A stretch of 64,000 nucleotides of DNA from Pseudonocardia sp. HH130630-07 (GTDB lineage: Bacteria; Actinomycetota; Actinomycetes; Mycobacteriales; Pseudonocardiaceae): the NCBI RefSeq assembly GCF_001698125.1, contig NZ_CP013854.1, forward strand, positions 5,022,001 to 5,086,000. The letters are read 5' to 3'. The notes under the pieces were generated by a model, which did no database searches, was not told where the DNA came from, and was given only the letters and a program-made list of their open reading frames with translations. The position numbers were made by a program, and so were the translations under genes. This document shows, piece by piece, positions 9,707 through 40,915 of this stretch. Every line of letters starts with the position of its first letter. Position 1 is the stretch's first letter.

Positions 9707-9780
<74 letters not shown>

Positions 9781-21741: not shown

Positions 21742-22040
21742 AGAGAGCTTCGAATCACTCAACGCCCGCTACCGCCGAGCGGTACGGGCGCGAGGGCATT
21801 TCCCCAGCGAGGCGGCCGCGTTGAAATGCCTGTACCTTGTGACCCGCAGCCTCGACCCGACCGGGCGAGGCCGCGCACGGTGGACGATCCGATGGAAGCC
21901 GGTGATCAACGCCTTCGCGATCACTTTCGGTGACCGCTGGCCGTCCGCCGAGCACTACTGACCAACAACGCCGGAACCACCGTTCCTGTTACAGACCCGT
22001 TCCCCCATGATCGGGGAGGCATCAGCTATAAGGGGTAGCG

Positions 22041-22331
22041 ATGCCAGAGGTACGGAAGCGCTACGACCGGGAGTTCCGTGACGGAGCGGTCCGGGTCGTG
22101 GAGGAGACGGGCAAGCCGATCGCCCAGGTCGCCCGTGACCTGGGGGTCAACGAGGGCACGCTGGGCAACTGGGTGGCCCGTGCACGAGAGGCCCGCGAGG
22201 ACACCGAGGGCCTGTCTCGCGGCGGCGTCGAGGAGCTCAAGCGGCTGCGCGCGGAGAACGCCGAGCTGCGGATGGAGCGTGATGTCCTCAAGCGATCCGT
22301 GGTCCTGTGGGTCAAGGAGGCGACGAAGTGA
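22041..22331 (+). CDS. IS3-family transposase OrfA
   Basis: 96 residues with helix-turn-helix IAQVARDLGVNEGTLGNWV and the leucine-zipper-like EELKRLRAENAELRMERDVL. It overlaps OrfB by 4 bp in the -1 frame. Intact. Confidence 0.9.
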   Translation: MPEVRKRYDREFRDGAVRVVEETGKPIAQVARDLGVNEGTLGNWVARAREAREDTEGLSRGGVEELKRLRAENAELRMERDVLKRSVVLWVKEATK

Positions 22332-23236
22332 GCGTGGCCCGTTTCATCGCCGACCAGAGGACCTTCCACCGGGTGCCGCACACGCTGGCCTGCGCCCTGT
22401 TGGGGGTGTCGATCTCCTGGTTGTACAAGTGGCTCGACCGCGCCGCGCGTTCCGACGGTGGTGCCACCGCGACCGAGAAGCGCCGCTGCGCGTTGGACGC
22501 CGCCGTGGCCGTGGCGTTCGACGACGCCCAGCGGCTACACGGCTCACCCCGTCTGCACGCCGACCTGTGTGAGGCCGGATGGCGGGTGTCGGAGAAGACC
22601 GTGGCGGACTCGATGCGCCGCCAGGGCCTGGTCGCCCGCCGGATCAAGCGGCACAACGGGCTGACCCGCCAGGACCGCACGGCGCCGAAGTTCCCGGACC
22701 TGCTTCGTCGGGGTTTCACTGCGGCCGAGCCGAACCGCAGATGGGTCGGGGACATGACCGAGATCCCCACCGCGGCCGGGAAGTTGTATCTGGCCACGGT
22801 GATCGACCTGTACTCGCGGCGGCTGCTCGGCGCGGCCACGGGGCTGCACCCGAACGCCGAGCTGGCGTGTGCGGCGATCCGGATGGCGGTGGCGGCCCGC
22901 GGCGGGGCGGACCGAATCGCCGGGGTGATCTTCCACACCGACCGCGGGTCGACCTACACCGCGGGCGCGTTCACCGCTCTGTGTCGGCGGCTCGACATCC
23001 GTCAGTCGATGGGCCGGGTCGGGTCGTGTTTCGACAATGCCGCGGCGGAGGCGTTCTTCTCCAGCCTGGAGTGGGAAGTGCTGTCCCGCAACGACTTCGA
23101 CACCATCAGTAGGGCGCGGGCGGCGGTCATCGACTGGTGTTACGGCTTCTACAACCACCGGCGGCGACACAGTGCCGCCGCCGGGCTCTCACCGATCAAC
23201 TACGAGAACGCCGCCCTCACCCGAGACGCGGCATAA
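22328..23236 (+). CDS. IS3-family transposase OrfB (DDE integrase)
   Basis: 302 residues from GTG 22328, which overlaps the OrfA stop (GTGA). Integrase core: Asp in VGDMTEIPT, Asp in FHTDRGSTYT and Glu in AAAEAFFSSLEWE, with the typical C-terminal WCYGFYNHRRRHSAAAGLSP. Complete. Confidence 0.92.
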   Translation: MSVARFIADQRTFHRVPHTLACALLGVSISWLYKWLDRAARSDGGATATEKRRCALDAAVAVAFDDAQRLHGSPRLHADLCEAGWRVSEKTVADSMRRQGLVARRIKRHNGLTRQDRTAPKFPDLLRRGFTAAEPNRRWVGDMTEIPTAAGKLYLATVIDLYSRRLLGAATGLHPNAELACAAIRMAVAARGGADRIAGVIFHTDRGSTYTAGAFTALCRRLDIRQSMGRVGSCFDNAAAEAFFSSLEWEVLSRNDFDTISRARAAVIDWCYGFYNHRRRHSAAAGLSPINYENAALTRDAA

Positions 23237-23265
23237 GAACCCTCCACGATCTCGGGGGAACCGCA

Positions 23266-23343
23266 CTCGACGACCTGCGTTCCGACCGGATCAACGTGCG
23301 CTTCGGCCGGGACGGCAAGGTTGTCTGGGCCGAGATCTACTAG
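23266..23343 (+). pseudogene. C-terminal fragment of an unrecognised small protein
   Basis: After the IS3 right end the frame continues as LDDLRSDRINVRFGRDGK then VVWAEIY and TAG. The RxDRxNVxxxxDGxV pattern is reminiscent of I78-type peptidase inhibitors, but 25 residues are too few to decide. Upstream part was lost at the IS3 junction, and an IS5 element begins at its stop codon. Confidence 0.4.
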
Positions 23344-23879
23344 GGCATGTCTCCCAATAGGCGTGACCAGGTGATGCAGGCGCTGAGGACGGTGGCGGCG
23401 CGATAGGTGATGGCGAGTTTGTCGTAGCGGGTGGCCAGCCCGCGCCACTGCTTGGTCAGGGTGAAGTGGCGTTCCACGACGTTGCGGCCCTTGTAGGTCT
23501 CAACGTCGAGTCCGGGTGGTCTGCCGCCGAGGGAGCCGCGGCGTTTGCGGGCGGCGATCTCGTCGCGTTTCTGCGGGATGACGGTGGTGATCGAGCGGCG
23601 GGCCAGTGCGCGCCGGTTGACCCCGGATGAGTAGGCCCGGTCGGCCACCACGGCGTCGGGTCGGGTGCGGGACCGTCCCGCGCCGAGGCGGGGGACGCGG
23701 ATGTCGGCCAGGACCTGCTCGAGCATGGCGCCGTCGTTGCGCTGCCCGCCGGTCACCACCACCGCCAGCGGCCGGCCCCGCCGGTCGACCGCGGCATGGA
23801 TCTTCGTCGTCAGCCCGCCACGGGAACGGCCGATGCCGTGACCTGCGGGTTCTCGCGGTCCGCCGAGCGGGCTGGGCAT
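23340..23879 (-). CDS. IS5 transposase OrfB
   Basis: C-terminal DDE half, 179 residues: GIGRSRGGLTTKIHAAVD, DAVVADRAYSSG with the second Asp, and RNVVERHFTLTKQWRGLATRYDK with the Glu. Normally made as a frameshift fusion with OrfA. The frame itself is intact. Confidence 0.8.
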   Translation of the reverse strand: MPSPLGGPREPAGHGIGRSRGGLTTKIHAAVDRRGRPLAVVVTGGQRNDGAMLEQVLADIRVPRLGAGRSRTRPDAVVADRAYSSGVNRRALARRSITTVIPQKRDEIAARKRRGSLGGRPPGLDVETYKGRNVVERHFTLTKQWRGLATRYDKLAITYRAATVLSACITWSRLLGDMP

Positions 23880-24345
23880 GAACCCGTCAGGGGATTTCGT
23901 GTAGTTCGACCGTGCCCCCTGTGTCCTGCTCGGGGCGGGTGGTGTTCGTGGCGTGCTGGTGCGCCCGGTTGATCGTGGCGTCCACCGACACCTGTCAACA
24001 CCGTCCAGTCGATCTCGCCCTTGGCGTCGGCCTGGGCCAACAGTGCGGCCAGCACGGTGTCCCAGGTGCCGTCAGCGGCGTAGCGGCGGTGTCGCTTCCA
24101 CACCGTTTGCCAGGGCCCGAACTGCTCCCGCGGCAGATCTCGCCAGGGGATCCCGGTTCGGTATCGGAAGATGATCCCCTCCACCACGCGGCGATCCTCG
24201 CCGAACGGGTGCCCACGCCGCCCGGCGTTGGAGGGCAGCAGCGGCCCGATCAACTGCCACTGAGCATCCGAGAGCAGCGCGAACCTCGACGAACTCACCG
24301 GCTCATCCTGCCGGCAGTCCGGACACCCATATGGGAGACACGCCC
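23343..24345 (-). mobile_element. IS5-family (IS427-like) element, full-length copy
   Basis: 1003 bp with ends GGGCATGTCTCCC and (complement) GGGCGTGTCTCCC and TA duplicated on both sides (23341-23342, 24346-24347). It has two overlapping transposase frames. Both this and the truncated copy at 42158 share a 10-bp insertion in the first frame. Confidence 0.88.
23810..24298 (-). pseudogene. IS5 transposase OrfA with 10-bp frameshift
   Basis: It starts normally (LLSDAQWQLIGPLLPSNAG, IPWRDLPREQFGPWQTVW) but after GEIDWTV an extra TTGACAGGTG shifts the frame. Deleting those 10 bp restores SVDATINRAHQHATNTTRP, including the first catalytic Asp. As it stands the product ends in unrelated sequence. 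Confidence 0.75.
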
Positions 24346-24405: not shown

Positions 24406-26016
24406 TCAGACACCGAGCGCCACCCCCTCCTGACGGGAGTCGGCGCCGCCGGCCAGCGCGCCGGTGTCCCGGTCGACCGAGACCACCTGGGCGCTGCCGC
24501 CCCCGCCGAGGTCACCGGCTCGGACGACGTCGTGCCCGCGAGCGGCGAGATCGGCGAGCACGCCCGCGCCGAGCCGGTCCTCGCAGCGCAGCTCGGCCGG
24601 CGAGCCGAGGTCACCGGCGTCGCTGCCGGGGAACACCGAGAAGCGGGGCGCGTCGACCGCGTCCTGCGGACCGGCACCGTGGTCGAGCAGGTGCGAGATC
24701 AGCTGGGCGTTCCACTGCACCTGGCCGTCGCCGCCGGGGGTGTTGCCGACGTGGCGCAGGTGGCCCTCGGCGTCGGTGACGATCCAGCTGTTGAGGGTGT
24801 GCAGCGGCCGCCGCCGCGGGGCGACCTCGTTCGGGTGCCCGGGGACGAGGTAGGCGCCGCGGGCGAGCCGGTTGTTGAGCACGATCCCGGTGCCCGGCAC
24901 CGCCAGACCGGCCCCGAAGGTGAACGCCAGCGACTCGATCAGGCCGACCGCGCGCCCGTCCGCGTCGACGGCGACCATCGACGTGGTGTCCCCGTCCGGC
25001 CGGGCGCCCGCCGGGGCCGGCAGGTCCCCGGCCCGGATCCGCTCGCGGGCCGCGGCGAGCGCGTCGGCGGCTCCGCGCAGGTCGGGGGCCGGCCGGTCGC
25101 TGCCGGCCGAGCGGTAGCGCTCGTCGAACGCGATCCGGGCCGCGCCGGCCAGCCAGTGGACGGCCGGCGCACCGAGCGGCTCGTGCCCGCCGAGCTCGCC
25201 GTCGCAGATCGCCAGCTGGTCGAGGACCATCCAGCCGGGCGTCGGCAGCGGCGTCTGGTGGACCACGTGCCCGGCGTAGCTGCAGCTCAGCGGCTCCTCG
25301 GCGTGGACGTCGCCGCCCGCGACCCACTCGTCGCCGGAGAACGGGGCGCCGCCCGCGACGAGTGCCGTGACCGTCCGCTCGGCCAGGGAGCCCGTGTAGA
25401 GGTCGCCCGGGTCACGGGACAGCGCGGCGATCGTCGCCGCCAGTTCCGGCCGGATCAGCCGGGTCCCCACCGCCGGCGCGCGGCCGTCGCGCAGCAGCGA
25501 TGCCGTCGACGGGTCGGTCGCCAGCCGTTCCCGGTGCTCGTCGATGTCACCGCGGGTGCGTGCCGTGCACGGCAGCCCGGTCGTGGCGAGCCGTGCCGCG
25601 GGTTCCCACAGCTGCTCCAGCGACCGGGTCGCACCCGCCGCGTGCAGCGCGGACAGCGCGGCGACCGCGCCCGGACCGGCGACCGACAGCGCCCCGTACC
25701 GGGGCAGTCCACCGGCGGCGCGGTAGAACCCCGGTGTACCGCCGTCGGGACCGAACCCGCTCCCGCCGAACGACCGCACCGCTCCGCCGGGTTCCCGCAC
25801 CAGTGCGAAGGCGTCACCGCCGATGCCGCACTGACCGGGCAGGGCGAGCCAGGCGACGGCCGCCATCGCCAGGGCCGCGTCGACGGCGTTCCCGCCGGAG
25901 GCGAGGACGTCGGCGCCGGCCCGGCTGATCGCGGGATGGCTGGCGGACACCATCCCGTCCGCTCCGAGTGCGGAGACGCGGCCGGACTGCGGGAACGTGC
26001 GCGCGGAGACGGTCAT
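24406..26016 (-). CDS. Gamma-glutamyltransferase-family Ntn hydrolase
   Basis: 536 residues from ATG 26016. The proenzyme would cleave itself before the nucleophilic Thr in GDTTSMVAVD (about residue 355). Other marks: GGNAVDAALAMAAVAWLALP and GIGGDAFALV near the N-terminus and NNRLARGAYLVPGHPNE beyond the nucleophile. No signal peptide is evident, so it is probably cytoplasmic. Members act on gamma-glutamyl compounds or as acylases on other amides; the substrate cannot be read. It is divergent from a transporter gene 240 bp away, which suggests import and hydrolysis of one substrate. Confidence 0.85.
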   Translation of the reverse strand: MTVSARTFPQSGRVSALGADGMVSASHPAISRAGADVLASGGNAVDAALAMAAVAWLALPGQCGIGGDAFALVREPGGAVRSFGGSGFGPDGGTPGFYRAAGGLPRYGALSVAGPGAVAALSALHAAGATRSLEQLWEPAARLATTGLPCTARTRGDIDEHRERLATDPSTASLLRDGRAPAVGTRLIRPELAATIAALSRDPGDLYTGSLAERTVTALVAGGAPFSGDEWVAGGDVHAEEPLSCSYAGHVVHQTPLPTPGWMVLDQLAICDGELGGHEPLGAPAVHWLAGAARIAFDERYRSAGSDRPAPDLRGAADALAAARERIRAGDLPAPAGARPDGDTTSMVAVDADGRAVGLIESLAFTFGAGLAVPGTGIVLNNRLARGAYLVPGHPNEVAPRRRPLHTLNSWIVTDAEGHLRHVGNTPGGDGQVQWNAQLISHLLDHGAGPQDAVDAPRFSVFPGSDAGDLGSPAELRCEDRLGAGVLADLAARGHDVVRAGDLGGGGSAQVVSVDRDTGALAGGADSRQEGVALGV

Positions 26017-26256
26017 GCGCGCGACGGTCCCGCGCCCGGCGACCGCACCGCCATGTCGATCGTGCACAGGGGACGGGCCGCGCGATGGGCGATCTGACGT
26101 AACGGCACGATGCACAATCCGAAACCCGCGTGCTGTGCACTGTTGGCCTGGCCGGTGCCCACGGCGGAGTGTGAGTGTGTTCCGCCACACCCCCGAAGCT
26201 CTGCGAACGACACCTCCACCCACCACACCGCCCTGACCGGCGGGAAGGAGGCCGTA
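26017..26256. promoter_or_regulatory. Divergent intergenic region with TGCACA/TGTGCA motifs
   Basis: 240 bp between the gamma-glutamyltransferase and transporter genes. TGCACA occurs at 26063-26068 and 26111-26116 and its complement TGTGCA at 26134-26139, each with a G/C-flanked context. This spacing could be an operator for one regulator controlling both directions, but no regulator gene is adjacent. Confidence 0.3.
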
Positions 26257-27897
26257 GTGGGCCTGACTGCCGCGCACTGGGTCTATCTCGCCGGGATCGT
26301 GCTGATCCTGGGCACGACGATCGTCCGGCGGAACGTCGTCGTCCCCGCGCTGCTGGCGACGATCGCGACCGCCGCCACGCTGACCGGCGACCCCATCGTC
26401 GCGGTCCAGGCGGTCTTCAACGCCACGCTGACGGCCGCGTCCGAGCTGTTCAACATCTTCCTGATCATCGCGATGGTCACCGCGCTGCTCGGCACGCTGC
26501 GGGCGATGAACGCCGACCAGCGGATGGTCACCCCCTTCCAGAAGGTCATGCGGGGCGGATGGTCGGCCTGGCTGGTGCTGATCGTCGCCACCTACGGGAT
26601 CAGCCTGTTCTTCTGGCCGACGCCCGCGGTGCCGTTGATCGGCGCGATCCTGGTCCCGGCCGCGATCCGGGCCGGACTGCCGGCGATGGGCGCCGCGATG
26701 GCGATCGCCGTGGCCGGGCAGGGGATGGCGTTGTCGAGCGACTACGTCATGCAGGTGGCTCCCGGGCTGTCGGCCACCGCGGCCGGGGCCGACGCCGGCC
26801 GGGTCGCCGACGTCGCGCTCGTCCTCGCGCTCGTCACCGGGGCCGTCGCGCTGGCGATCATGGGTGTGATGCTGCGGCGGGAGATGCGCATACCGTCCGC
26901 CGCCCTGCTCGAGGCGTGGGAGAACGGGGTCGTCTCCGGCCCCCGCCCCGCGGTCGGCCTGCTGCGCCGGCTGCGGGCCCGCCTGACCGGGCCCGCCCCG
27001 GTCCCGGTGCCCGGCGACGTCGACGAGCGCGTCGTGGTCGGCGCCACCACCGGCGGCCCGCCGCACCACGGCGCGGGCGGGCCCGGCGCGACCCCGCCCC
27101 CGACCGGCGGTGGCGGTGGTGACGGTGGCGGTGGTGACGCCGGCGCCGGCGGAGCGGGCGACGAGCGGACCGCCGCCCCGCGGACCGAGCGGCTGGCGCG
27201 GTTCTTCGCCGTCGCCGTGCCGGTGGCGTTCGGCCTGATGATGGTCTACCTCGTCCTCGGCGGGCTCGGCTACGTCCCGTCGGTCAAGGAGGGTTCGGCC
27301 GCGGCGCTGGTCGGCGGGCTCGCCACCGTGCTCGTCGTGATCGCCTGCGTCGCGCTGGACGGCCCGAAGGAGGCGCTGACGTCGGTCGGCAACCATGTCA
27401 CCGACGGCCTGGTGTTCGCCTTCAGGGCGATGGGGATCGTGCTGCCCATCGCCGGCTTCTTCTTCATCGGCAACGAGAGTTTCGCGGGGGAGATCCTCGG
27501 GCTCGAGGACGGGGGGCCGCAGGCGCCCGCGCTGCTGGTCGACCTGGTCGTCGCGGCGGAGCACCACATCCCCGGCAATCCCGTCGTCATGTGCTTCGGG
27601 GTGCTGTTCATCGGGCTGCTGTGCGGGCTGGAGGGGTCCGGGTTCTCCGGCCTGCCGCTGACCGGGTCGCTGGCCGGTGCGCTCGGCCCGAGTGTCGGGA
27701 TGGACCCGGCGACCCTCGCGGCGGTGGGCCAGATGGGCTCGGTGTGGGCCGGTGGCGGTGTGCTCGTCGCCTGGTCGTCGTTGCTCGTGGTGGCGGGGGT
27801 GACCCGGGTCCCGGTGATTGAGCTGGCCCGGCGGTGCTTCCTGCCGGTGATGGCCGGGCTCGCGGTGTCGACGCTGGTGGCCGCGTTCTTCTTCTGA
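26257..27897 (+). CDS. Multi-pass membrane transporter, family uncertain
   Basis: 546 residues from GTG 26257, chosen for GGAAGGAGG 5 bp upstream. At least eleven hydrophobic segments, e.g. WVYLAGIVLILGTTIV, LFNIFLIIAMVTALL and WLVLIVATYGISLFFW. A long Gly/Pro-rich hydrophilic loop (about residues 240-310) splits the protein into two halves of similar size, as in ion-transporter superfamily permeases of the gluconate/citrate/NhaC kind. Substrate unknown. Context suggests uptake of the substrate of the divergent gamma-glutamyltransferase. Confidence 0.65.
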   Translation: MGLTAAHWVYLAGIVLILGTTIVRRNVVVPALLATIATAATLTGDPIVAVQAVFNATLTAASELFNIFLIIAMVTALLGTLRAMNADQRMVTPFQKVMRGGWSAWLVLIVATYGISLFFWPTPAVPLIGAILVPAAIRAGLPAMGAAMAIAVAGQGMALSSDYVMQVAPGLSATAAGADAGRVADVALVLALVTGAVALAIMGVMLRREMRIPSAALLEAWENGVVSGPRPAVGLLRRLRARLTGPAPVPVPGDVDERVVVGATTGGPPHHGAGGPGATPPPTGGGGGDGGGGDAGAGGAGDERTAAPRTERLARFFAVAVPVAFGLMMVYLVLGGLGYVPSVKEGSAAALVGGLATVLVVIACVALDGPKEALTSVGNHVTDGLVFAFRAMGIVLPIAGFFFIGNESFAGEILGLEDGGPQAPALLVDLVVAAEHHIPGNPVVMCFGVLFIGLLCGLEGSGFSGLPLTGSLAGALGPSVGMDPATLAAVGQMGSVWAGGGVLVAWSSLLVVAGVTRVPVIELARRCFLPVMAGLAVSTLVAAFFF

Positions 27898-28140: not shown

Positions 28141-28890
28141 ATGACCCTGACCGTCGACGGCACCACCGGCGCCACCGGCGCCACCGTTCCGGAACTGCTC
28201 GACCGAGACGACTTCCGGGCCGCGCTGGAGGACGCCATCAAGGGCCGCGAGGCCAAGAACGCGTCGTTCTCCAAGGCGTGGGCGGACGGTTCGCTGACCC
28301 GCGAGCACTTCGCCCGCTGGGCCGAGAACCACTACCACTACGTCGGACCGTTCGCCGACTACCTGGGCTACATCTACGGCAACACCCCGGACCACTTCAC
28401 CGACGCCAAGGACTTCACCCTCCAGAACATGTACGAGGAGGAACTGGCCGACATCCGGCACACCGATCTCCTCATCCGGTTCGGCGAGGCGTGCGGAACC
28501 AGCAAGGAGCGGATCGAGGACCCGGACAACATGAACGCGGTCACCCGCGGTCTGCAGTCCTGGTGCTACGCCGTCGCGATGCGGGAGCACTTCGTGGTGG
28601 CCACCGCCGCCCTGGTCGTGGGACTGGAGTCGCAGGTACCGGGGATCTACCGCAAGCAGATCGTGCCGCTGCGGGAGACCTACGGATTCACCGAGGACGA
28701 GATCGAGTTCTTCGACCTGCACATCACCTCCGACGAGGTGCACGGCGAGCGCGGATTCCAGATCGTGCTGGACCACGCCGACACCGTGGAGCTGCAGCAG
28801 CGCTGCCTCCGGTTCGTCCGGTGGGGGGCGGAGATGCGGTTCTCCTACACCCGTGCCCTGTTCGACACCTACGTCGCGCCCACCACCTGA
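28141..28890 (+). CDS. Heme-oxygenase-like diiron (TenA/PqqC-type) protein
   Basis: 249 residues. ATG 28141 is chosen because GGAGGG lies 6-8 bp upstream; an in-frame ATG at 28039 lacks this. The all-helical HDO fold is indicated by WAENHYHYVGPFADYLGY, MYEEELADIRHTDLL (Glu and His ligand positions) and FFDLHITSDEVHGERGF, the HxxxDxxH signature of the last ligand helix. Such proteins include PqqC, TenA and diiron oxygenases/decarboxylases; the full Glu/His/Asp set favours a metal-dependent oxidase over the thiaminase TenA. Following genes supply two Rieske proteins and a reductase, so it is probably the terminal oxygenase of a multicomponent system. Confidence 0.75.
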   Translation: MTLTVDGTTGATGATVPELLDRDDFRAALEDAIKGREAKNASFSKAWADGSLTREHFARWAENHYHYVGPFADYLGYIYGNTPDHFTDAKDFTLQNMYEEELADIRHTDLLIRFGEACGTSKERIEDPDNMNAVTRGLQSWCYAVAMREHFVVATAALVVGLESQVPGIYRKQIVPLRETYGFTEDEIEFFDLHITSDEVHGERGFQIVLDHADTVELQQRCLRFVRWGAEMRFSYTRALFDTYVAPTT

Positions 28891-28918
28891 CCGCGATCCG
28901 ATCGCGTTCGGACCGAAC

Positions 28919-28953
28919 GGCCGCGGCGGGTGCGCTCCGCACCCGCCGCGGCC
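28919..28953. terminator. Perfect 16-bp GC hairpin between diiron oxidase and Rieske gene
   Basis: GGCCGCGGCGGGTGCG (28919-28934) and its exact complement (28938-28953) with a 3-nt loop. No T-tract follows. It may attenuate transcription or stabilise the upstream mRNA segment so that the oxidase is made in excess over the electron-transfer proteins. Confidence 0.5.
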
Positions 28954-28972
28954 CCGACGCCCGGGAGCCCGC

Positions 28973-29341
28973 GTGAGCGACACCGACACCGACACGACGG
29001 CGGCCGGCGCCGGGACCACCGGCTGGGTCGCCACCGTCCCGTTGACCGCACTCGCCCGCCGCCGCCGGGCCCGGGTCGAGATCGGCGACCGGGCGGTCGC
29101 CCTGTTCCTCGTGGGGGAGCGGGTGTTCGCCTTCGACGACGTCTGCATCCACAAGGGACGTTCCCTGTCCCGCGGGGTCGTCTGGCAGGGCCGGGTGGTC
29201 TGCCCGGCGCACCAGTGGGCCTTCGACCCCGGGACCGGCCGGGCCGAGGGACGCGACGAGTGCCAGCCGGTCCACGACGTCGCCGTGATCGACGGTGTCG
29301 TGCACGTCGACCCGCACCCCCGTCGCACCGAGGAGATCTGA
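28973..29341 (+). CDS. Rieske [2Fe-2S] ferredoxin
   Basis: 122 residues from GTG 28973. Cluster ligands are Cys-x-His in DVCIHKGRSLSRG and Cys-x2-His in VVCPAHQWAFDPGTG. No membrane anchor, so a soluble electron carrier. The stop TGA overlaps the ATG of the ferredoxin reductase, indicating tight coupling; it probably accepts electrons from that reductase and passes them to the diiron oxidase upstream. Confidence 0.9.
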   Translation: MSDTDTDTTAAGAGTTGWVATVPLTALARRRRARVEIGDRAVALFLVGERVFAFDDVCIHKGRSLSRGVVWQGRVVCPAHQWAFDPGTGRAEGRDECQPVHDVAVIDGVVHVDPHPRRTEEI

Positions 29342-30567
29342 TGCCCGAGCTGCCCCGCAGCATCGTCACGGTGGGGGCCGGCCAGGCGGCCGTCGCCGCG
29401 GTGCGGACGCTGCGCCGTCGCGGGTTCGACGGCGCGGTCACCGTGCTGTCCGACGAACCCCACCTGCCCTACCAGCGGCCCCCGCTGTCCAAGGAGTTCC
29501 TGCGGGGCGAGACCGGTTCGTCCGATCTCGTCCTGCTCGACGAGTCGTGGGCGGCGGCCAACGACGTCGTACTGCGCACCGGGACCGCGGTCACCGCCGT
29601 CGCGCCCGGTGCGGTCACCCTCGGCGACGGCTCGTCGGTGGTCGCCGACGCCGTCCTGCTGGCGACGGGTGTCCGGGCGCGGACCCTGCCGGGCCTGACC
29701 GGTGACCGGGTGGTCCACCTGCGCACCGTCGCCGACGCGGTCCGGCTCCGCGACGCGCTGGCGGGAGTCCGCCGGCTGGCCGTCGTCGGCGGCGGGCTGA
29801 TCGGGGCCGAGGTCGCCTCGGCGGCCCGCGAACGCGGGGTGGAGGTCGTCGTCCTGGAGGCGGGGCAGCAGCCGATGCTGGCCCAGCTCGGCGAGCGGAT
29901 GGCCGGGTTCTGCGCCGATCTGCAGCGTTCCGCCGGGGTGGACCTGCGGTGCGGCCAGGAGGTGGGCGCGGTGCAGGAGGGCCCGTCCGGGGTGGTCGTG
30001 CCGACCTCGTCCGGGCCCGTCGAGGCCGATCTGCTGGTCGTCGCCGTGGGCTCGATGCCCAACGACGAGCTGGCCCGCGCGGCGGGTATCGCCACCGACC
30101 CGGTCCGCGGCGGCATCGTCGTCGACGACGCCTGCCGGACCTCGGCCGCCGGCGTGTTCGCCGCCGGTGACGTCGCGACCAGGGCGACCGGCGCCGGGTT
30201 CGCCCGTACCGAGCACGTCGACAACGCGACGACCCAGGGCGGCGTCGTGGCGCGCGTCCTGCTCGGGAAGCCGGCGCCCGCACCGGACGCCCCCTGGTTC
30301 TGGTCGGACCAGTTCGATCTCAACCTGCAGTTCGTCGGGCACGCCCCGGCCGGAGCGGAGATCGTGGTCCGGGGCAGCGTCGAGGACCGGGACTTCACCG
30401 CGTTCTACCTGACCGACGGGTGCGTCCGCGCCGCGTTCGCCGTCGAGCGCGGCGGTGACGTCGCCGCGGCCCGGCAGCTGCTCGCACTCGGCGCCCCGGT
30501 GCCTGCCGACCGGCTGGCCGACGACGACCACGACCTGTTCGACCTGCTCGACAGCATCACCGCGTGA
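29341..30567 (+). CDS. FAD-dependent ferredoxin reductase (NAD(P)H)
   Basis: 408 residues, the size of BphA4/camA-type reductases. First dinucleotide motif VGAGQAAVAAVRTLRRRG for FAD, LPYQRPPLSKEFL typical of this class, second motif VVGGGLIGAEVASAARERG for NAD(P)H, and VFAAGDVATRATG for the FAD C-terminal site. It transfers electrons from NAD(P)H to a Rieske ferredoxin. Overlaps the previous gene by 1 bp and the next reading frame at its stop. Confidence 0.92.
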   Translation: MPELPRSIVTVGAGQAAVAAVRTLRRRGFDGAVTVLSDEPHLPYQRPPLSKEFLRGETGSSDLVLLDESWAAANDVVLRTGTAVTAVAPGAVTLGDGSSVVADAVLLATGVRARTLPGLTGDRVVHLRTVADAVRLRDALAGVRRLAVVGGGLIGAEVASAARERGVEVVVLEAGQQPMLAQLGERMAGFCADLQRSAGVDLRCGQEVGAVQEGPSGVVVPTSSGPVEADLLVVAVGSMPNDELARAAGIATDPVRGGIVVDDACRTSAAGVFAAGDVATRATGAGFARTEHVDNATTQGGVVARVLLGKPAPAPDAPWFWSDQFDLNLQFVGHAPAGAEIVVRGSVEDRDFTAFYLTDGCVRAAFAVERGGDVAAARQLLALGAPVPADRLADDDHDLFDLLDSITA

Positions 30568-30578
30568 GGAGAGACGAC

Positions 30579-30956
30579 GTGGAGTACCACAGGATCGCCA
30601 GGTCCGGTCAGATCCCGGAGGGCGTCGTCCGGCGCTTCTTCGCCGGCGAGGTCGAGGTGGCGGTGTCCCGCTCCGACGGCGAGGTGCACGCGACCTCCAA
30701 CTACTGCAGCCATCTCGACTGCCTGCTCTCCAGCGGGAAGGTGACCGACGAGGGACTGCTGTGCTCGTGCCACGGCAGCGTCTTCGACTACGTCTCGGGG
30801 GAACCGCTCTGCCCGCCCGCGACGCGTCCGATCACCGTCTTCCCGGTCCGCGAGGAGGACGGGACGGTCTACGTCGGCATCAGTGCGGAGCTGGCCGAGG
30901 CGGCCATGCGCCGCCGGGCCGTGGGCGCCCGCCGCCTCGGCGACGCGGCCACCTGA
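30579..30956 (+). CDS. Second Rieske [2Fe-2S] protein
   Basis: 125 residues. GTG 30579 is preferred over GTG 30564 because GAGGAGA lies just upstream of it. Ligands: NYCSHLDCLLSSG (Cys-x-His) and LLCSCHGSVFDY (Cys-x2-His). It differs strongly from the first Rieske protein, so it is not a recent duplicate; it may be a ferredoxin for another partner or a subunit. Confidence 0.85.
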   Translation: MEYHRIARSGQIPEGVVRRFFAGEVEVAVSRSDGEVHATSNYCSHLDCLLSSGKVTDEGLLCSCHGSVFDYVSGEPLCPPATRPITVFPVREEDGTVYVGISAELAEAAMRRRAVGARRLGDAAT

Positions 30957-30959: not shown

Positions 30960-31670
30960 GTGCGGACGGTGCGCGGCCGGGCGGAACCGGTGCTCGTGGC
31001 GATGCTGGTGCTGACGTTCACCACCGGCGTCGTCGACGCCGTCGGGTTCCTCGGGCTGGACCAGGTGTTCGCCGGCAACATGACCGGCAACGTGGTCATC
31101 CTCGGGATGGCCCTCGCCGGGAGCGCGGAGGTGCGCGTGCTCGGCCCCGGTGTCGCGCTCGCCGCGTTCGTCGCCGGTGCCTTCGGCGCCGGGCGGGTGC
31201 TGCGGGGCAGCACCGGATCGACCTGGGCGTTGCGGCACACGGTGCTGTTCACGCTCGTGGGCGGGCTGCTCGGAGCGGTCTCGGTGCTGCTGCTCGTCAC
31301 CGCGGACGGCGACGCGGTCACCGGCGCCGTCGCCGCCGGCGGACTGGCCGCTGCGATGGGCCTGCAGGCCGGGACCGCCCGGCACCTCGCGGTGAAGGAC
31401 GTGACCACGGTCGTCGTGACCTCGACGCTGACCGGGCTGGCCGCCGACGCCGCCCGGGGTCACGGGCAGCCGTGGGTCCGGCGGCTGCTGGCCGTCCTGC
31501 TGCTCGTCGCCGGTGCCGGCGTGGGCGCGCTGTCGCTGCGGCTCGACGGTGGCTGGGGGATCATGCTCGCCGCCGTCGCGACGCTCGGGGTGGCGGCCGC
31601 CGGGCACGCCGTCGCACGACGGGCCGGTCCGGGGCAGGTGGTCACGCGAGGTCGAGCACGCGCAGGCTGA
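30960..31670 (+). CDS. YoaK/DUF1275 family membrane protein
   Basis: 236 residues from GTG 30960, 3 bp after the Rieske gene. Six or more hydrophobic segments. Family signature near the start: TGVVDAVGFLGLDQVFAGN then MTGNVVILG. Function unknown in this family; location in the operon could mean export or import of its substrate. Its 3' end overlaps the convergent IclR gene by 29 bp. Confidence 0.85.
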   Translation: MRTVRGRAEPVLVAMLVLTFTTGVVDAVGFLGLDQVFAGNMTGNVVILGMALAGSAEVRVLGPGVALAAFVAGAFGAGRVLRGSTGSTWALRHTVLFTLVGGLLGAVSVLLLVTADGDAVTGAVAAGGLAAAMGLQAGTARHLAVKDVTTVVVTSTLTGLAADAARGHGQPWVRRLLAVLLLVAGAGVGALSLRLDGGWGIMLAAVATLGVAAAGHAVARRAGPGQVVTRGRARAG

Positions 31671-32388
31671 GATCGATCGCGTCGGCGGTGCGGCGCAGCT
31701 CGGTGATCCACGCGGACCGGCGGGCGGGGTCGTAGCGGGCGACCGGCATCGCGACGGAGACGGCCGCCCGCAGCTCGGCCGTCCCCGTCTCCAGCCGGCT
31801 CCCGATCGCGACCAGACCGGTCTCGGTCCTGCCGTGGTTGGTGGCGACGCCCTCGCGACGGACCCGGGCGAGCTCGCCGAGCAACCGGTCGACGTCGAGC
31901 CCCTCGACCTCGGCCAGCGCCGTGCGGACCTCGCCGGGGGACAGGTCGGCGAGCATCGCCCGGCCGAGCGACGCGAGGTGCGCGGGCAGCACGCGGCCCT
32001 CGCGTTCCCCGACGCGCAGCGTGTGCCGGCACTCCACGGTGGCGATCATCCGGACCTGCGAGCCGACCAGGACCCCCAGGTGACTCGTCTCGCCGGTGCG
32101 TGCGGTCAGCTCCTCCAGGTGGGGCAGGGCGAGCCGGCGCAGCGCGGCCACCGGCTCGGGTACGCCGGGGGTGCGCAGCACCGGGCCGGCCACGTAGCGG
32201 CGACGGTCGTCGCGGGCGGCGAAGTCGCGGTAGACCAGCATCGACAGCAACCGGTGCGCCGTGGACCGGGCCACGCCGAGCCGCTGGGCCGCCTCGCTGA
32301 CCCCCAGCGACCCCTCCTGCGCCAGGATGGTGGCGAGGTGCAGGGCGTGGTCGACCGAGTCGAGACCGTAGGCGGGACGGTTCTTCAC
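31642..32388 (-). CDS. IclR-family transcriptional regulator (downstream)
   Basis: 248 residues from GTG 32388. N-terminal winged helix (LGVSEAAQRLGVARSTAHRLLSMLVYRDF) and C-terminal effector domain with SLGRAMLADLSPGEV. The start overlaps the stop of the flavin monooxygenase gene by 4 bp (GTGA), so it is the last gene of the aromatic operon. IclR proteins of this kind often sense aromatic acids. Its pairing with another IclR at the operon head is unusual. Confidence 0.88.
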   Translation of the reverse strand: MKNRPAYGLDSVDHALHLATILAQEGSLGVSEAAQRLGVARSTAHRLLSMLVYRDFAARDDRRRYVAGPVLRTPGVPEPVAALRRLALPHLEELTARTGETSHLGVLVGSQVRMIATVECRHTLRVGEREGRVLPAHLASLGRAMLADLSPGEVRTALAEVEGLDVDRLLGELARVRREGVATNHGRTETGLVAIGSRLETGTAELRAAVSVAMPVARYDPARRSAWITELRRTADAIDLSLRVLDLA

Positions 32389-34295
32389 ACCGGCCCGGCC
32401 CCGGCCCGTGCCACCAGCACCTCGGACAGGAACGGACCGAGCTCGGACAGCGCGTCCAGCGCGACGACGTGGGCGACGTACTGGTCCGGCCGGACCAGTA
32501 CGGCGGCTCCGCGGTCGCGGTCCACGCCGCGCAGGTCGAACACGTCGGCCGCCGGGTCCGCGCAGAAGACCTTCTCGTGGTCGACGAGGCCGAAGCGGCC
32601 CTTGCGGGGCAGCAGCACCGGTGGCAGGTCGGCCACCGACACGCTGCGGTGGCCCGCCTGCAGCACCGCCCGGACGTCGACGACCGCGTCGGGCTCGGAA
32701 CCGGCGCCGCGGTAGGGGGCCAGCGGCGAGTCCGCGGAGTCCAGCAGGTCGCACGCGGTCCGCAGCCGTGACACCGACGCCGCCGGAGCGGCCCCGGCGG
32801 CGCGGTCGGCGAACAGGTAGAGCCGCCACGCCCCGTCGGCGCGGGCGACGTGCCCGAGCTGGACCCGCCTGCCGTCGGCCACCCGGACCACCGGTGCGGA
32901 GTGCAGCCGCATCCCGGCCGGGAAGCCCGTCGCCAGTTCCTGCTGCGCCGTGCCGGCGGTGAGCACCGACGTCGCGTACCGCACCGCGACGCCCGCGGTG
33001 AACCGGCCCTGCTGCCGGAAGAAGCGCTGGAACTCCGCCGGATCACCGCCGTGCGCGCTGAACCGGCCGGTGAACTCCCGGTCGAAGTCGATGAGCTCGC
33101 GCGCCACGGCCTGGCGTTCGCGCGAGTACGTGCCCAGCACCTCGGGCCGGGCCACCCCGCCGGCCACGGCGCCGAGCTTCCAGCCCAGGTTCCAGGTGTC
33201 GGCCATGGAGACGTTCATACCCTGCCCGGCCTTGGCGCTGTGGGTGTGGCAGGCGTCGCCCGCGATGAACACCCGGGGCCCGCGGGCGTCGCCACCCGCG
33301 GAGTCGTCGAACCGGTCGCACAACCGCTGCCCGATCTCGTACACCGCCCACCACCCGACGTCGCGCACGTCGATCGTGTACGGGTGCAGGATCCGGTTGG
33401 CGACCGCGGTCAGCTTCTCCGGGTCGGCGGAGCGCTCGCGCAGCATCTGCGCGTCGCGCTCGGGGTCCAGCTCGATGTAGAGCCGCACGAGGTGCCCGCC
33501 CTCGCGCGGGATGATCAGCAGGCTGCCGTTCTCGGAGGTGACCGCGGACTTGAACCGGATGTCGGGGAAGTCGGTGACGGCGAGGACGTCGAGCACGCCC
33601 CAGGAGCGGTCGGTCGCGTCGCCCTCCAGCCGCAGGCCCATCGCGGCGCGGGTGGCGCTGCGGGACCCGTCGCACCCCACGACGTAGCGGGCGCGGATCC
33701 GGCTGGTCTCCCCGGTCGGCCGGGAGCCGTGCACGTGCTGCAGCGTGACCGTCACCGGGTACGGCTCGTCCGGGTCGTCGGCGCGGTCGATCCCGCTCAG
33801 CTGCAGACCGTGGTACGGCGCGATCCGCGCGGCGGAGCGGTCCAGGTACTCGCGCAGGAACGCCTGCATGCGTGCCTGGTTGACGATCATGTGCGGCATC
33901 TCGGACAGGCCGTCCTCGACGTCGGGGACCCGTCCGGTCCGGACGATCCGGCCGGTGTCGCCGGGATCGGGGCGCCAGAACGTCACCTCGTTGACCTGGT
34001 AGCCCTCGGCGAGGACGCGGTCGGCGAGCCCGAACGCCTCGAACATCTCCATCGTGCGGCACGCGACGCCGTCGGCCTGCCCCACGGCCAGCGGCTCGTC
34101 GCGGCGGTCGACGACGACCGTGCGCAGTTCCGGGTACGCCGCCAGCTGCGCGGCGAGCACGAGGCCGGCGGGGCCGCTGCCGACGACGACGACGTCCGTG
34201 GTCGCGGGCAGGCCGTCGGGCCGGTCGGCGACGGAGGGGTGCGGCGGGTGGACGAACGGGTCACCCGGCCGGTAACCGTCGAGGTAGAACTGCAC
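32385..34295 (-). CDS. FAD-dependent aromatic monooxygenase (3-hydroxybenzoate 4-monooxygenase-like)
   Basis: 636 residues, matching MobA/phenol 2-monooxygenase class proteins. FAD motif VVVVGSGPAGLVLAAQLA near residue 35, the DG motif YVVGCDGSRSATR near 213, and GDACHTHSAKAGQGMNVSMAD near 355. A C-terminal thioredoxin-like domain follows (about 450-636). It most likely hydroxylates a phenolic acid using NAD(P)H and O2. It is in one operon with a ThDP decarboxylase-like enzyme and an aldehyde dehydrogenase, which could form its substrate. Confidence 0.87.
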   Translation of the reverse strand: MQFYLDGYRPGDPFVHPPHPSVADRPDGLPATTDVVVVGSGPAGLVLAAQLAAYPELRTVVVDRRDEPLAVGQADGVACRTMEMFEAFGLADRVLAEGYQVNEVTFWRPDPGDTGRIVRTGRVPDVEDGLSEMPHMIVNQARMQAFLREYLDRSAARIAPYHGLQLSGIDRADDPDEPYPVTVTLQHVHGSRPTGETSRIRARYVVGCDGSRSATRAAMGLRLEGDATDRSWGVLDVLAVTDFPDIRFKSAVTSENGSLLIIPREGGHLVRLYIELDPERDAQMLRERSADPEKLTAVANRILHPYTIDVRDVGWWAVYEIGQRLCDRFDDSAGGDARGPRVFIAGDACHTHSAKAGQGMNVSMADTWNLGWKLGAVAGGVARPEVLGTYSRERQAVARELIDFDREFTGRFSAHGGDPAEFQRFFRQQGRFTAGVAVRYATSVLTAGTAQQELATGFPAGMRLHSAPVVRVADGRRVQLGHVARADGAWRLYLFADRAAGAAPAASVSRLRTACDLLDSADSPLAPYRGAGSEPDAVVDVRAVLQAGHRSVSVADLPPVLLPRKGRFGLVDHEKVFCADPAADVFDLRGVDRDRGAAVLVRPDQYVAHVVALDALSELGPFLSEVLVARAGAGPV

Positions 34296-34333
34296 GGGTG
34301 CTCCAGAGGTCCGGGGGTCGTGGCTGCGGGGGG

Positions 34334-35674
34334 TCAGATGCCGGTGGCCGGCAGGACGAGGACGAGCCCGGTCAGGACCGGCCCGACGACGACCATGGCC
34401 GCGCTCCAGCGCAGCAGCGTCAGGTTCACCCTCGGCCGGTCGGCGTCCGCGGCGTTGCTCAGTACCAGCGCGCCGATGGAGGAGAACGGGGCGGCGTCGA
34501 CGACCGTCACGCAGATCGCCAGTGCCGCGACGACCGGGACCGGGTCGGCGCCGGACTGGGCGAGCAGCGGCACCAGGAGTGGGACGGTCGCCCCGATGAC
34601 GGCGGCGCTGGAGGCGAAGGCGCTGGTCAGGCCGCCCACCGCGCAGATCAGCACGGCGGCGAGCCCCACGCTGCCGATGCCGGTGATCAGCTGCCCGAAC
34701 ACGTCGAGCGTGCCGGCTTCCTGCAGCACGTCGAGGTAGGTGACGATGCCGCAGATCAGCAGGATGATGTTCCAGCCGACGAGCTTCATCGCCCCGGCGC
34801 TGGACCGCGGCGTCACGAGGGTGAGCAGTACCGCGGCGATCAGTGCACAGATGCCGATGTCGACGCCGAAGCCGAGCGCCGCGACCGCGACGGCGACCAG
34901 CAGCACCAGTGTCAGGGTCCGGTCGGCGACGCTCCCCGGCGCCGGGGCGTCGTCCGGGCGCGCGGGTGCCGGATCGGCCGGGGCGTCCCCGGCGTCCGCG
35001 GTGCCGGCGGTGTCCGGGGTGGGCGGTCCGGCCGGCACCGGTGCCCGGGAGGCGACGGCGCGCTGCTCCCGGATCAGGGCCGGCCCGCCGTTGAGCAGGT
35101 ACGCGGCCACCCCGACGCCGACGTTGACGGCGAACCCGGCGAGGTAGAGGAACAGCGGTGAGGTGGCCAGCCCGGCCCGCTGCATCGTCCCCTCGACGAT
35201 CGCGCCGAGCGGATTGAGCGGGGAGAAGTTGCCCGCCGTCGCGCCGAACACGACCATCAGCGCGACCAGCCGGGCGGGCACGGCGTAGCGCTCGCCCAGG
35301 CGCAGAGCGATCGGCGCGAGCATCGCCACGCCGGCGGGTGCGAGGGCACCGAGGCTGACCGGCACGGCGGTGACGACGAACAGCACGCCCGGCAGCAGCG
35401 CCCGGCGGTCGCCGATCAGGCCGGTGCAGCGGTCCACCAGCCAGCCGATCGTCCCGTTGACCGTGGCGACGGCGAACAGCAGCGTCACGCCGAGGACCAG
35501 CAGGAACAGATTGGCGGGGAAGGCGGCGAAGACGGTGTCGACCGGGACGCCGAACACCAGGGGACCGACCAGGAACGCGGCGACGAGCGCCAGCGCTCCG
35601 AGGTTGACCTGACGGACGGTCCCCACGACGAAGATGAGGAACAGGACGGCTACCGCGAGGATGTGGGACGACAT
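34334..35674 (-). CDS. MatC-like dicarboxylate/organic anion permease
   Basis: 446 residues, about eleven hydrophobic segments. The N-terminal half is typical of MatC_N (RQVNLGALALVAAFLVGPLV, FPANLFLLVLGVTLLFAVA). An Ala/Pro/Asp-rich loop (about 205-245) separates two halves, and SSAAVIGATVPLLVPLL plus VVDAAPFSSIGALVL mark the ion-transporter fold. Probably imports the acidic substrate of the surrounding operon. Confidence 0.8.
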   Translation of the reverse strand: MSSHILAVAVLFLIFVVGTVRQVNLGALALVAAFLVGPLVFGVPVDTVFAAFPANLFLLVLGVTLLFAVATVNGTIGWLVDRCTGLIGDRRALLPGVLFVVTAVPVSLGALAPAGVAMLAPIALRLGERYAVPARLVALMVVFGATAGNFSPLNPLGAIVEGTMQRAGLATSPLFLYLAGFAVNVGVGVAAYLLNGGPALIREQRAVASRAPVPAGPPTPDTAGTADAGDAPADPAPARPDDAPAPGSVADRTLTLVLLVAVAVAALGFGVDIGICALIAAVLLTLVTPRSSAGAMKLVGWNIILLICGIVTYLDVLQEAGTLDVFGQLITGIGSVGLAAVLICAVGGLTSAFASSAAVIGATVPLLVPLLAQSGADPVPVVAALAICVTVVDAAPFSSIGALVLSNAADADRPRVNLTLLRWSAAMVVVGPVLTGLVLVLPATGI

Positions 35675-35744
35675 CGGCCCTCCGGGCGTGAGGACAGCGC
35701 GTGACGACGGGACCGGGTGGTCCGCGCGCGCCGCCGGTGATCGG

Positions 35745-37466
35745 TCAGCTCGTGCCGACGGTCGAGGCGAAGGCGGGGGAGTAGCCGCGGTCGACCCGGA
35801 CGTCGACGACCACCTGCGCGCCGGCGACGACGCGGGCTACCGCGTCGGCGAGCACCTCCGGCAGCGCACCGGGGTCGGTGACCGGCCCGATCCCCTGGGC
35901 GCCCATGCTCCGTGCGAGCCCGGCGAAGTCGGTGACCGGGCCGTCCAGCGCGACGCCGACGGTGGCGTTCTCCGGCGGGCGCCCGCGGCGGGTGGCGACG
36001 GCGCGCTGGTGGACCTCGTCGTTGTAGAACGAGGCGTTGTTGGCGACCACCACGAGCAGCGGGATCTCGTGGCGGACCGCGGTCCACACGGCACCGTTGC
36101 CCATCAGGGTGTCGCCGTCGCCGAGTACGGCGACCGGCAACCGGCCGGTCCCGCGCAGCGCCAGTGCCGCGCCGACGGCCATGCCGGGGCCGGAGCCGAT
36201 CCCGCCGCCGCCGTCGTACCCGAGCGCGTCGAGCGGGTCCTCGAGCGGCCAGAGCTCCGCGTCCCAGGACAGCGGGGTGCGGATCAGGCACGGCGCGCAG
36301 CCGCGGGTGGCGTCCCACAGGGCCGTCTGCAGTACCGGGACCGCGATGTGGCCGGCTCCGTGTGGTGCGTCGGCGCGCGCGGCCGGGCGCCGGGGGCCCG
36401 GCTCCGCGACGGCGGGCGCGTCGCCGTCCCCGGCGAGCAGCTCCTCGACGACGACGTCGGGGGTCGCGGCCAGCGTGAGCGCCGCCGGTGCGGGGCCGTA
36501 CCCGTCCTTGCTCCAGCCGTTGTGCACCTGGTGGTCGACCGTCGCGGACACGACGGTCGCCCCGGTCGCACCGGCGGCCCGCAGGGTGCCGCCCAGGTCG
36601 GTCCAGTCGAGTGCGAGGACGACGTCGGCGTCGCGGAGCAGTGCCTTGTTCTCCTCGGCGAGGAAGAACGCCGGGGCGTGCCCGTGCAATGGATGGTGGG
36701 TGGGGAAGGCGGCCGGCAGCTTGGCGTCGGTGACCACCCGGGCACCGAGCCGCTCCGCCAGCGCGACGCGCCGGTCCCAGGCCCGCCGGGACCGGCCCAC
36801 CCGGCCGACCAGCAGCACCGGGCGGGCCGCGCCGGCGAGCAGCGCGGCGACCCGGTCGAGGTGGTGGCGGCGCGGCGCGGCCTCGCCGACGGGCTCGGCG
36901 GCCCGGGGATCCGGCTGCGGCACCCCCTCGGCGGGCTCCTCCTGCACCGTGACGTCGAGGCAGACGTAGGCCGGCCCGGCGGGCAGGGTCCTGGCCACCC
37001 GCGCGGCGTGCAGCACCGAGTCCACGCTCGCCCCCGCCGACGCCGGCTGGTCGTCCCACTTGACGAACGGGCGGATCAGCGCGCCCTGGTCGGCCGAGGT
37101 GTGGATCCAGTCGATCCACGGCCGCCGGCGGTGCGCGTCCACCGGGCCGGTGGCCCCGATCAGCAGCACCGGGACCCGGTCGCACCAGGCGTTGTAGACG
37201 GCCATGGTCGCGTGCATCAGGCCGACGTTGGCGTGCAGCCCGACGGCCAGCGGCTCACCGGTCACCTTGGCGTAGCCGTGGGCGATCGCGACCGAGTGCT
37301 CCTCGTGGGTGCACAGGAGCAGCTGCGGGCCGCCGGGGCCCAGGTGGTTGACCAGGCTGTCGTGCAGTCCCCGGAAGCTCGCCCCCGGTGTCAGCGCGAC
37401 GTAGGGCGTGCCGGTGGCGGCGACGGCCTCGGCGATGCGGTCGCTGCCCCACACCGTTGTGCTCAT
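35745..37466 (-). CDS. ThDP-dependent enzyme (benzoylformate decarboxylase-like)
   Basis: 573 residues from ATG 37466. The Glu that activates thiamin diphosphate is in LLCTHEEHSVAIAHGYAKV near residue 50. The central domain begins around RPVLLVGRVGRS and the C-terminal ThDP/Mg site is LGDGDTLMGNGAVWT followed by VVVANNASFYNDE (GDG...NN). Within the family it could be a 2-oxoacid decarboxylase, acetolactate-synthase-like or carboligase. An aldehyde dehydrogenase gene overlapping it by 4 bp favours decarboxylation of a 2-oxoacid to an aldehyde. Confidence 0.83.
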   Translation of the reverse strand: MSTTVWGSDRIAEAVAATGTPYVALTPGASFRGLHDSLVNHLGPGGPQLLLCTHEEHSVAIAHGYAKVTGEPLAVGLHANVGLMHATMAVYNAWCDRVPVLLIGATGPVDAHRRRPWIDWIHTSADQGALIRPFVKWDDQPASAGASVDSVLHAARVARTLPAGPAYVCLDVTVQEEPAEGVPQPDPRAAEPVGEAAPRRHHLDRVAALLAGAARPVLLVGRVGRSRRAWDRRVALAERLGARVVTDAKLPAAFPTHHPLHGHAPAFFLAEENKALLRDADVVLALDWTDLGGTLRAAGATGATVVSATVDHQVHNGWSKDGYGPAPAALTLAATPDVVVEELLAGDGDAPAVAEPGPRRPAARADAPHGAGHIAVPVLQTALWDATRGCAPCLIRTPLSWDAELWPLEDPLDALGYDGGGGIGSGPGMAVGAALALRGTGRLPVAVLGDGDTLMGNGAVWTAVRHEIPLLVVVANNASFYNDEVHQRAVATRRGRPPENATVGVALDGPVTDFAGLARSMGAQGIGPVTDPGALPEVLADAVARVVAGAQVVVDVRVDRGYSPAFASTVGTS

Positions 37467-38926: not shown

Positions 38927-38948
38927 CGGAGTCTCCCTGGGTGGGCGG

Positions 38949-39632: not shown

Positions 39633-39696
39633 CGGGCGGTCTCCTCTGCTGTGGGGAATACCCGCAGCGTAGGAGCCGTGATGTCTGTCTTGAAGA

Positions 39697-40886: not shown

Positions 40887-40915
40887 TGCGGTTCCCCCGA
40901 GATCGTGGAGGGTTC

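Follow-up and report, generated by a model that had tools for sequence, protein, structure and literature searches.

Which enzyme does a Rieske-type electron-transfer chain supply when the gene directly ahead of it encodes a heme-oxygenase-like diiron protein (HDO)? This question is raised by a locus in a 64,000-nt stretch (positions 5022001-5086000; hereafter the window) of the 6.68-Mb genome of Pseudonocardia sp. HH130630-07. At window positions 28141-30956, the initial annotation had described a tight cluster of genes for an HDO, a Rieske ferredoxin (Rieske 1), a ferredoxin reductase, and a second Rieske protein (Rieske 2), and had suggested a new type of multicomponent oxygenase. The cluster was borne out: all four frames are open with a single terminal stop each, and its boundaries fall on the start codon of the HDO and the stop codon of Rieske 2. 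The genes are closely spaced, with 82 nt between the HDO and Rieske 1, a 1-nt overlap between Rieske 1 and the reductase, and a gap of 11 nt before Rieske 2. Overall, this operon of a soil actinobacterium points to an uncharacterized oxygen-using catabolic enzyme system, and we consider it probable that the system is a catabolic oxygenase of several components that draws on NADH and ends in a diiron HDO with a ligand set of three histidines and three carboxylates (3H/3C). Such an enzyme would most likely act as a monooxygenase.

Conservation of the HDO-redox gene set

The HDO was used to scan a collection of genome contigs, which yielded 494 stretches with a relative at an E-value ≤ 1e-3, and the best 80 were analyzed. 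The HDO of these loci is 80-91% identical to the window copy over the matched part. By a tally of titles, the loci are spread over 18 named genera of actinobacteria plus a metagenome-assembled genome labelled Pirellula (L061), a planctomycete label that is not trusted as the contig is 3 kb long with 52% GC; the nearest named relatives of the window HDO are from Pseudonocardia. Among the 70 loci with at least 4.5 kb of downstream sequence, all three redox genes were found 3′ of the HDO in 69, and the reductase with a Rieske gene after it in all 70; the one exception (L070) was without a Rieske 1 match. When all 80 loci were counted, a Rieske gene before the reductase was detected in 79, the reductase in 78, and a Rieske gene after it in 74. 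Thus, the concern that the set might be conserved nowhere does not hold, and the trait expected of an HDO with a dedicated partner of the MboA/MboB kind (see below), namely a redox partner encoded beside the HDO and conserved with it, is present in 69 of 70 loci.

A class-wide search for PF14518 supplied a control set, for which the 30 loci of highest score were taken with about 1.5 kb of flank on each side. These loci are remote, as none of the 30 matched the window HDO at an E-value ≤ 1e-4, and they included no reductase and a single weak Rieske match. With the same flank of about 1.5 kb, ten of ten other Pseudonocardia HDO loci display both Rieske 1 and the reductase. The system is patchy in its distribution. 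At an E-value ≤ 1e-40, it was detected in 2 of 396 genomes sampled across the phylum, in 9 of 249 sampled from the order, and in 11 of 62 from the genus, with each count including the window organism's own genome.

The four-gene unit stands as annotated for the window, whereas the unit conserved among relatives is larger. Genes for a permease-like protein and a gamma-glutamyltransferase (GGT)-like hydrolase lie upstream in the window and were detected in 62 and 68 of the 80 loci, respectively. An aldehyde dehydrogenase (ALDH) gene, counted as any same-strand similarity to the ALDH of the window near the HDO, was found in 63 and in many relatives sits between the reductase and Rieske 2. HbpS-like genes likewise join the HDO unit, along with the ALDH, in many relatives.

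The HDO protein

The HDO scored 123 bits against PF14518 (cut-off 28.9), which places it in the HDO superfamily by sequence. It also passed PF03070 (TENA/THI-4/PQQC) at 33.6 bits (cut-off 22), far under its PF14518 score. At an E-value ≤ 1e-3, the NCBIfam matches were limited to the CADD-type p-aminobenzoate synthase (TIGR04305; 83.7 bits, cut-off 200) and PqqC (TIGR02111; 42.3 bits, cut-off 240), both under cut-off, and the TenA model was absent among them. Solved-structure matches were led by p-aminobenzoate synthases, followed by PqqC. A clustering with the thiaminase TenA, which the initial annotation had named as grounds for giving up its proposal, is therefore not what the profile and solved-structure matches reveal.

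The ligand set of most HDOs is three His and three carboxylates, according to the review PMC13108848. When the corresponding positions were read off an alignment to CADD, residues E100, H107, E163, H194, D198, and H201 were found to be identical in 95 of 95 HDO copies aligned by tblastn, in agreement with the 3H/3C motif. The 95 copies comprise the 80 loci, five further loci (L082, L083, L085, L129, and L130), and ten Pseudonocardia matches (L087-L096). As several of these ten are probably duplicates of named loci, 95 copies are not equivalent to 95 independent genomes; the set spans the 62%-identical HDO of L129 and the Burkholderiaceae HDOs. The protein is thus a probable 3H/3C diiron protein, with metal occupancy predicted from its residues. 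In CADD, Tyr27 and Lys152 are consumed in making p-aminobenzoate, as reported in PMC11965152. In all 95 of the 95 HDO copies, Ser44 and Gln173 stand in their place, and the sacrificial residues are accordingly missing.

Redox proteins of the chain

Both Rieske proteins carry the C-x-H...C-x2-H motif (CIH...CPAH in Rieske 1). The closest solved structures of Rieske 2 are the ferredoxins of toluene and biphenyl dioxygenases, while Rieske 1 has weaker matches, to the ferredoxins of naphthalene and carbazole dioxygenases. The reductase is closest to TodA (3.5e-59) and the BphA4 family (about 1e-58). The use of NADH rather than NADPH is associated with an acidic residue where the second strand of the nucleotide-binding motif ends; since such a residue is present in the reductase (...VVVLEAG), NADH is its likely electron donor.

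A motif scan of the window frames of at least 100 aa revealed no P450 motif and, apart from one chance match per copy of an insertion sequence (IS) that occurs twice, no further Rieske motif; it agrees with the earlier statement that neither a Rieske oxygenase alpha subunit nor a P450 is encoded nearby. Similarly, among the 1054 open reading frames (ORFs) called in the 80 loci by a simple caller that misses genes, no P450 motif was found and a large Rieske-motif ORF was found once. This ORF, from Streptomyces locus L078, joins Rieske 1, the reductase, and Rieske 2 in a single frame that measures 737 aa when counted from the start of Rieske 1 at 8825; a linker rich in Pro, Ala, and Glu precedes Rieske 2. 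It is the sole fusion of reductase to Rieske 2 among 75 junctions tested; it supports the reading of the three proteins as one chain and does not generalize. An apparent fusion of Rieske 1 to the reductase in L009 was set aside as the reductase is split at that locus.

The same HDO with different chains in other lineages

An HDO 69-72% identical to the window copy was identified on six Burkholderiaceae replicons, including Caballeronia plasmid pSBC2-4 (L083, 69%) and the Cupriavidus metallidurans CH34 megaplasmid (L082, 72%). At these two loci the HDO neighbors include an ALDH, an HbpS-like protein, and a member of the permease family seen in the window. In place of the Rieske chain, they encode a pair of Fer2 ferredoxins together with a 116-aa protein and a reductase that resembles BenC and MmoC, with scores below the cut-off of either model. 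A third arrangement was found at L061 (HDO 82% identical), L127 (75%, genome G031), and L129 (62%, genome G787), where genes for a Fer2-like ferredoxin and a single Rieske protein come after the HDO. The Fer2-like proteins of these three loci have Asp at the third cluster Cys position (CxxxxCGTD), whereas both of those of L083 have Cys. In every lineage with neighbors read, the HDO adjoins a [2Fe-2S] chain, yet not always the same one, and this association of different chains with the same HDO is the strongest argument that the chain serves the HDO.

The 116-aa protein, a possible effector or coupling protein, lies between the two ferredoxins (L083:11072-11422 and L082:8397-8735) and is without a Pfam or NCBIfam family.

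Proposed system and alternative explanations

The dedication of the Rieske chain to the HDO is well supported, because neither a TenA affiliation nor a lack of conservation was found. The earlier suggestion of a new multicomponent oxygenase type stands in this part (69 of 70 loci), while its "new type" is the more tentative part, as a dedicated HDO redox partner has already been published (see below). In the proposed system, NADH would reduce the FAD-dependent reductase, and electrons would pass through one or both Rieske ferredoxins to the diferric HDO. The reduced diiron site would then take up O2, oxidize a small substrate imported by the neighboring permease, presumably with the stoichiometry of a monooxygenase, and be re-reduced at each turnover. 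The product would probably give an aldehyde, to be oxidized by the linked ALDH.

Several observations weigh against this proposal. (i) Median identities to the window are 85% for the HDO, 50% for Rieske 1, 50% for the reductase, and 62% for Rieske 2; with the 80 loci ranked by HDO similarity, the conservation of the HDO looks inflated. (ii) The AlphaFold2 model of the HDO, derived from the window sequence aligned with those of 33 of the 80 loci (with L019 excluded from the protein alignment for a stop within its match, and L061 also left out), had a mean predicted local distance difference test (pLDDT) score of 50.4, a quality at which it lends no support to the geometry of the metal site. (iii) A reductase was found at none of the three loci with a Fer2-like ferredoxin and one Rieske protein, neither in the 17.5 kb of L127 nor at L061 and L129, which are short contigs; at L127, the permease was not found either. 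(iv) The GGT-like gene was not found in L082. (v) An HbpS-like gene was not found in the window genome by one query, for which a positive control was lacking. The window holds a single ALDH match, 34-39% identical to the ALDHs of the relatives. (vi) Aromatic-ring-hydroxylating dioxygenase alpha and beta genes lie at 198-1989 of L083, about 10 kb from the HDO, so the chain at this locus could have another user.

Among the alternatives, the one that survives best, though we regard it as unlikely, is that the HDO is an oxidase, a desaturase, or a C-C/C-N lyase whose diferric site is merely primed or rescued by the chain, in the manner of MboB for the second turnover of MboA. According to PMC13185094, MboB is required for the second oxidation by MboA and the first is accomplished with Fe(II) alone; PMC13185094 and PMC13108848 also report that HDOs perform varied reactions. 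Three proteins that include two ferredoxins, and that are conserved and once fused, look by contrast like a supply for every turnover, a point that sequence does not decide. This alternative partly overlaps the proposed NADH-driven oxygenase.

It is less likely still, and in our estimate improbable, that the chain feeds another oxygenase, a Rieske oxygenase or a P450 encoded elsewhere, and that the HDO is a co-regulated pathway enzyme with no need of its electrons. Carriers of this type normally supply Rieske oxygenases, and the L083 dioxygenase offers such a user, but no such partner was detected by motif in the ORFs called in the 80 loci or in the window (no search for Rieske oxygenases covered the rest of the organism's genome). 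Furthermore, the redox genes adjoin the HDO in 69 of 70 loci, and loci of this HDO that lack the three-gene Rieske chain have another [2Fe-2S] chain beside it.

We also considered whether an HDO with such a chain already exists in PicB, the 6-hydroxypicolinate 3-monooxygenase of picolinic acid degraders. PicB is a four-component enzyme. In PMC10142695 it is described as the 6-hydroxypicolinic acid (6HPA) monooxygenase, with the genes picB1B2B3B4. This identity would be compatible with the proposed oxygenase and is a rather remote prospect, as a loose search of plasmids returned the six close HDO relatives and otherwise only remote matches among the best 60 of 112, the annotated ones being PqqC. 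Finally, a self-sacrificing p-aminobenzoate synthase of CADD type or a PqqC-type oxidase is very improbable: the nearest solved structures favor it, whereas the Ser44/Gln173 substitutions, the TIGR04305 and PqqC scores far under cut-off, and the catabolic appearance of the identified linked genes all speak against it.

Pathway context and other features of the locus

The features of the locus are listed in Table 1. The linked genes that look catabolic encode the permease, ALDH, GGT-like hydrolase, and HbpS-like protein, together with a PucR-like regulator and a major facilitator superfamily (MFS) transporter, both named by eye. ALDH and HbpS-like genes recur in the actinomycetes, L082/L083, and L127; genes of the ornithine cyclodeaminase (OCD) family were found in L083, L082, and L127, and a Rid-like protein, also named by eye, in L129. 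The best-scoring models for the ALDHs were those of 2,5-dioxovalerate dehydrogenase and alpha-ketoglutaric semialdehyde dehydrogenase. For the OCD protein they were ornithine cyclodeaminase and pyrroline-2-carboxylate reductase. None of these scores reached the curated cut-off. A GGT-like relative in L028 matched TIGR00066 under its cut-off, with 2nlz and 2i3o as solved relatives. The GGT-like hydrolase and, in other lineages, the OCD-family and Rid-like proteins may carry out amide or imine steps, which suggests that the substrate is nitrogen-containing; our best guess is a nitrogen-containing small carboxylate.

The permease matched neither a Pfam nor an NCBIfam family, and solved structures gave no match for its homologue in L083; a structure prediction from 8 sequences had a mean pLDDT of 54.4 and, like the HDO model, was too weak to base a fold search on. 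A homologue of the permease was detected on all 6 HDO-bearing plasmid records and on one other record. On an Arthrobacter plasmid (L086), a 37%-identical permease of the family (9001-10488) clusters with Rieske, luciferase-like monooxygenase (LLM), amidase, ALDH, and Rid genes, and no HDO is present among the 18 annotated features listed. DUF1275-like genes fall into two clusters, one present in 21 of the 80 loci and the other in 11.

An intercistronic hairpin was identified between the HDO and Rieske 1. The gap at 28891-28973 folds with a z-score of -4.43, and none of 200 shuffles was equally stable. A perfect stem of at least 10 bp within 110 nt of the HDO stop was found in 38 of 81 loci (window included) compared with 2 of 405 dinucleotide shuffles. 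Stems of this length were rare at the other junctions, with 1 of 75 after Rieske 1, 0 of 74 after the reductase, and 2 of 72 after Rieske 2. The stems shown differ in sequence among loci, and 43 of 81 loci are without one. The hairpin may act as an mRNA stabilizer or a partial terminator that holds the HDO above its carriers; a hairpin at this position would fit an excess of HDO over the carriers and in this way favor the proposed system.

On the left side of the window, transposase genes occupy the site at which Pseudonocardia relatives hold ALDH, HbpS, and MFS genes. In view of this replacement and of the HbpS-like gene not found, the pathway may be rearranged in the window organism. Two IS elements, of 1267 and 820 nt, each occur in two copies that are inverted relative to one another and 100% identical, at 21999-24159 and 40887-42969. 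The copies bracket a catabolic block at about 24.3-40.9 kb, which may be mobile or recently rearranged. A second catabolic block lies on the minus strand at 31642-40491 of the window and encodes a flavoprotein of the phenol-2-monooxygenase family, a MatC/CitMHS carrier, a thiamine diphosphate (ThDP) enzyme, an aldehyde dehydrogenase, and two IclR regulators.

Table 1. Features of the HDO locus in the window (first eight rows) and of related loci (last three rows)
Feature	Coordinates	Strand	Basis or remark
HDO (heme-oxygenase-like diiron protein, proposed terminal oxygenase)	28141..28890	+	ATG start, 249 aa, PF14518 E = 1.3e-35
Rieske ferredoxin 1	28973..29341	+	GTG start, 122 aa, PF00355 E = 1.4e-14
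FAD-dependent ferredoxin reductase, TodA/BphA4 type, probably NADH-using	29341..30567	+	ATG start, 408 aa, PF07992 and PF14759
Rieske ferredoxin 2	30579..30956	+	GTG start, 125 aa, PF00355 E = 1.6e-17; upstream in-frame start possible at 30564
Intercistronic hairpin, 16-bp perfect stem, HDO/Rieske 1 gap	28919..28953	+	Folding test
Permease-like membrane protein, probable substrate importer	26110..27897 (open frame)	+	Without Pfam match; true start probably about 26257, where relatives align
Gamma-glutamyltransferase-like N-terminal nucleophile (Ntn) hydrolase	24406..25980, start approximate	-	Relatives align to 24409-25980
DUF1275 membrane protein directly 3′ of Rieske 2, system membership uncertain	30960..31670	+	PF06912 E = 2.1e-32
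Asp-variant (CGTD) ferredoxin-like protein beside HDO	L061:2136-2519		
Asp-variant (CGTD) ferredoxin-like protein beside HDO	L127:7633-8184		
Asp-variant (CGTD) ferredoxin-like protein beside HDO	L129:3320-3682		

Comparison with known systems

The cellular reduction of HDOs is a largely open question, for which this operon names concrete candidate partner proteins. In PMC13185094 (2026), the second oxidation by the HDO MboA is reported to depend on the reductase MboB, and the two are described as possibly the first characterized pair of an HDO and a dedicated redox partner; other HDOs have been driven with ascorbate or redox mediators according to the same paper. With MboA/MboB published, a dedicated partner of an HDO is not new in principle, and the new part would be the multi-protein chain of Rieske type and its catabolic setting. 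No Rieske-fed HDO was described among the matches listed from the open-access literature searched, most subscription papers lying outside it. In common with the mangotoxin acetylenase MboA and its reductase, the window HDO is encoded beside a dedicated partner of the NAD(P)H-driven flavin/[2Fe-2S] kind. MboB, in contrast, is one protein and serves the desaturation of a peptide in a biosynthetic pathway, while the window encodes two Rieske ferredoxins and a TodA-like reductase in an operon that looks catabolic. The Burkholderiaceae version, with its BenC/MmoC-like reductase, looks nearer to MboB.

The p-aminobenzoate synthases CADD and NePabS are the nearest HDOs of solved structure and align with the window HDO at all six ligand positions, but differ in their sacrificial Tyr and Lys. 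Three-component Rieske oxygenases such as toluene and biphenyl dioxygenase employ the same kind of reductase and Rieske ferredoxin. They differ in that (i) an alpha/beta oxygenase was not found by motif beside the window chain, where the HDO would take its place; and (ii) a second Rieske protein is encoded in 70 of 70 HDO loci with enough DNA. Soluble diiron monooxygenases of the sMMO/T4MO kind also combine a diiron oxygenase with a reductase and, in some, a Rieske ferredoxin, yet they rely on a multi-subunit ferritin-like hydroxylase and an effector, unlike the one small subunit of heme-oxygenase fold encoded in the window.

If the proposal is true, HDOs would reach from natural-product biosynthesis into catabolism, and the differing redox modules around a near-constant oxygenase would provide a natural series for the study of partner recognition. 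We tentatively suggest, as a close call, that these systems form a distinct class in which the terminal oxygenase is a single-subunit diiron protein of heme-oxygenase fold and not a ferritin-like hydroxylase, a Rieske oxygenase, or a P450. In this class, three electron modules (Rieske-reductase-Rieske, Asp-variant Fer2 with Rieske, and two Fer2 with a BenC-like reductase) would be joined to one oxygenase 62-92% identical to the window copy, which, as far as searched, would make it both the first catabolic and the first Rieske-fed HDO system.

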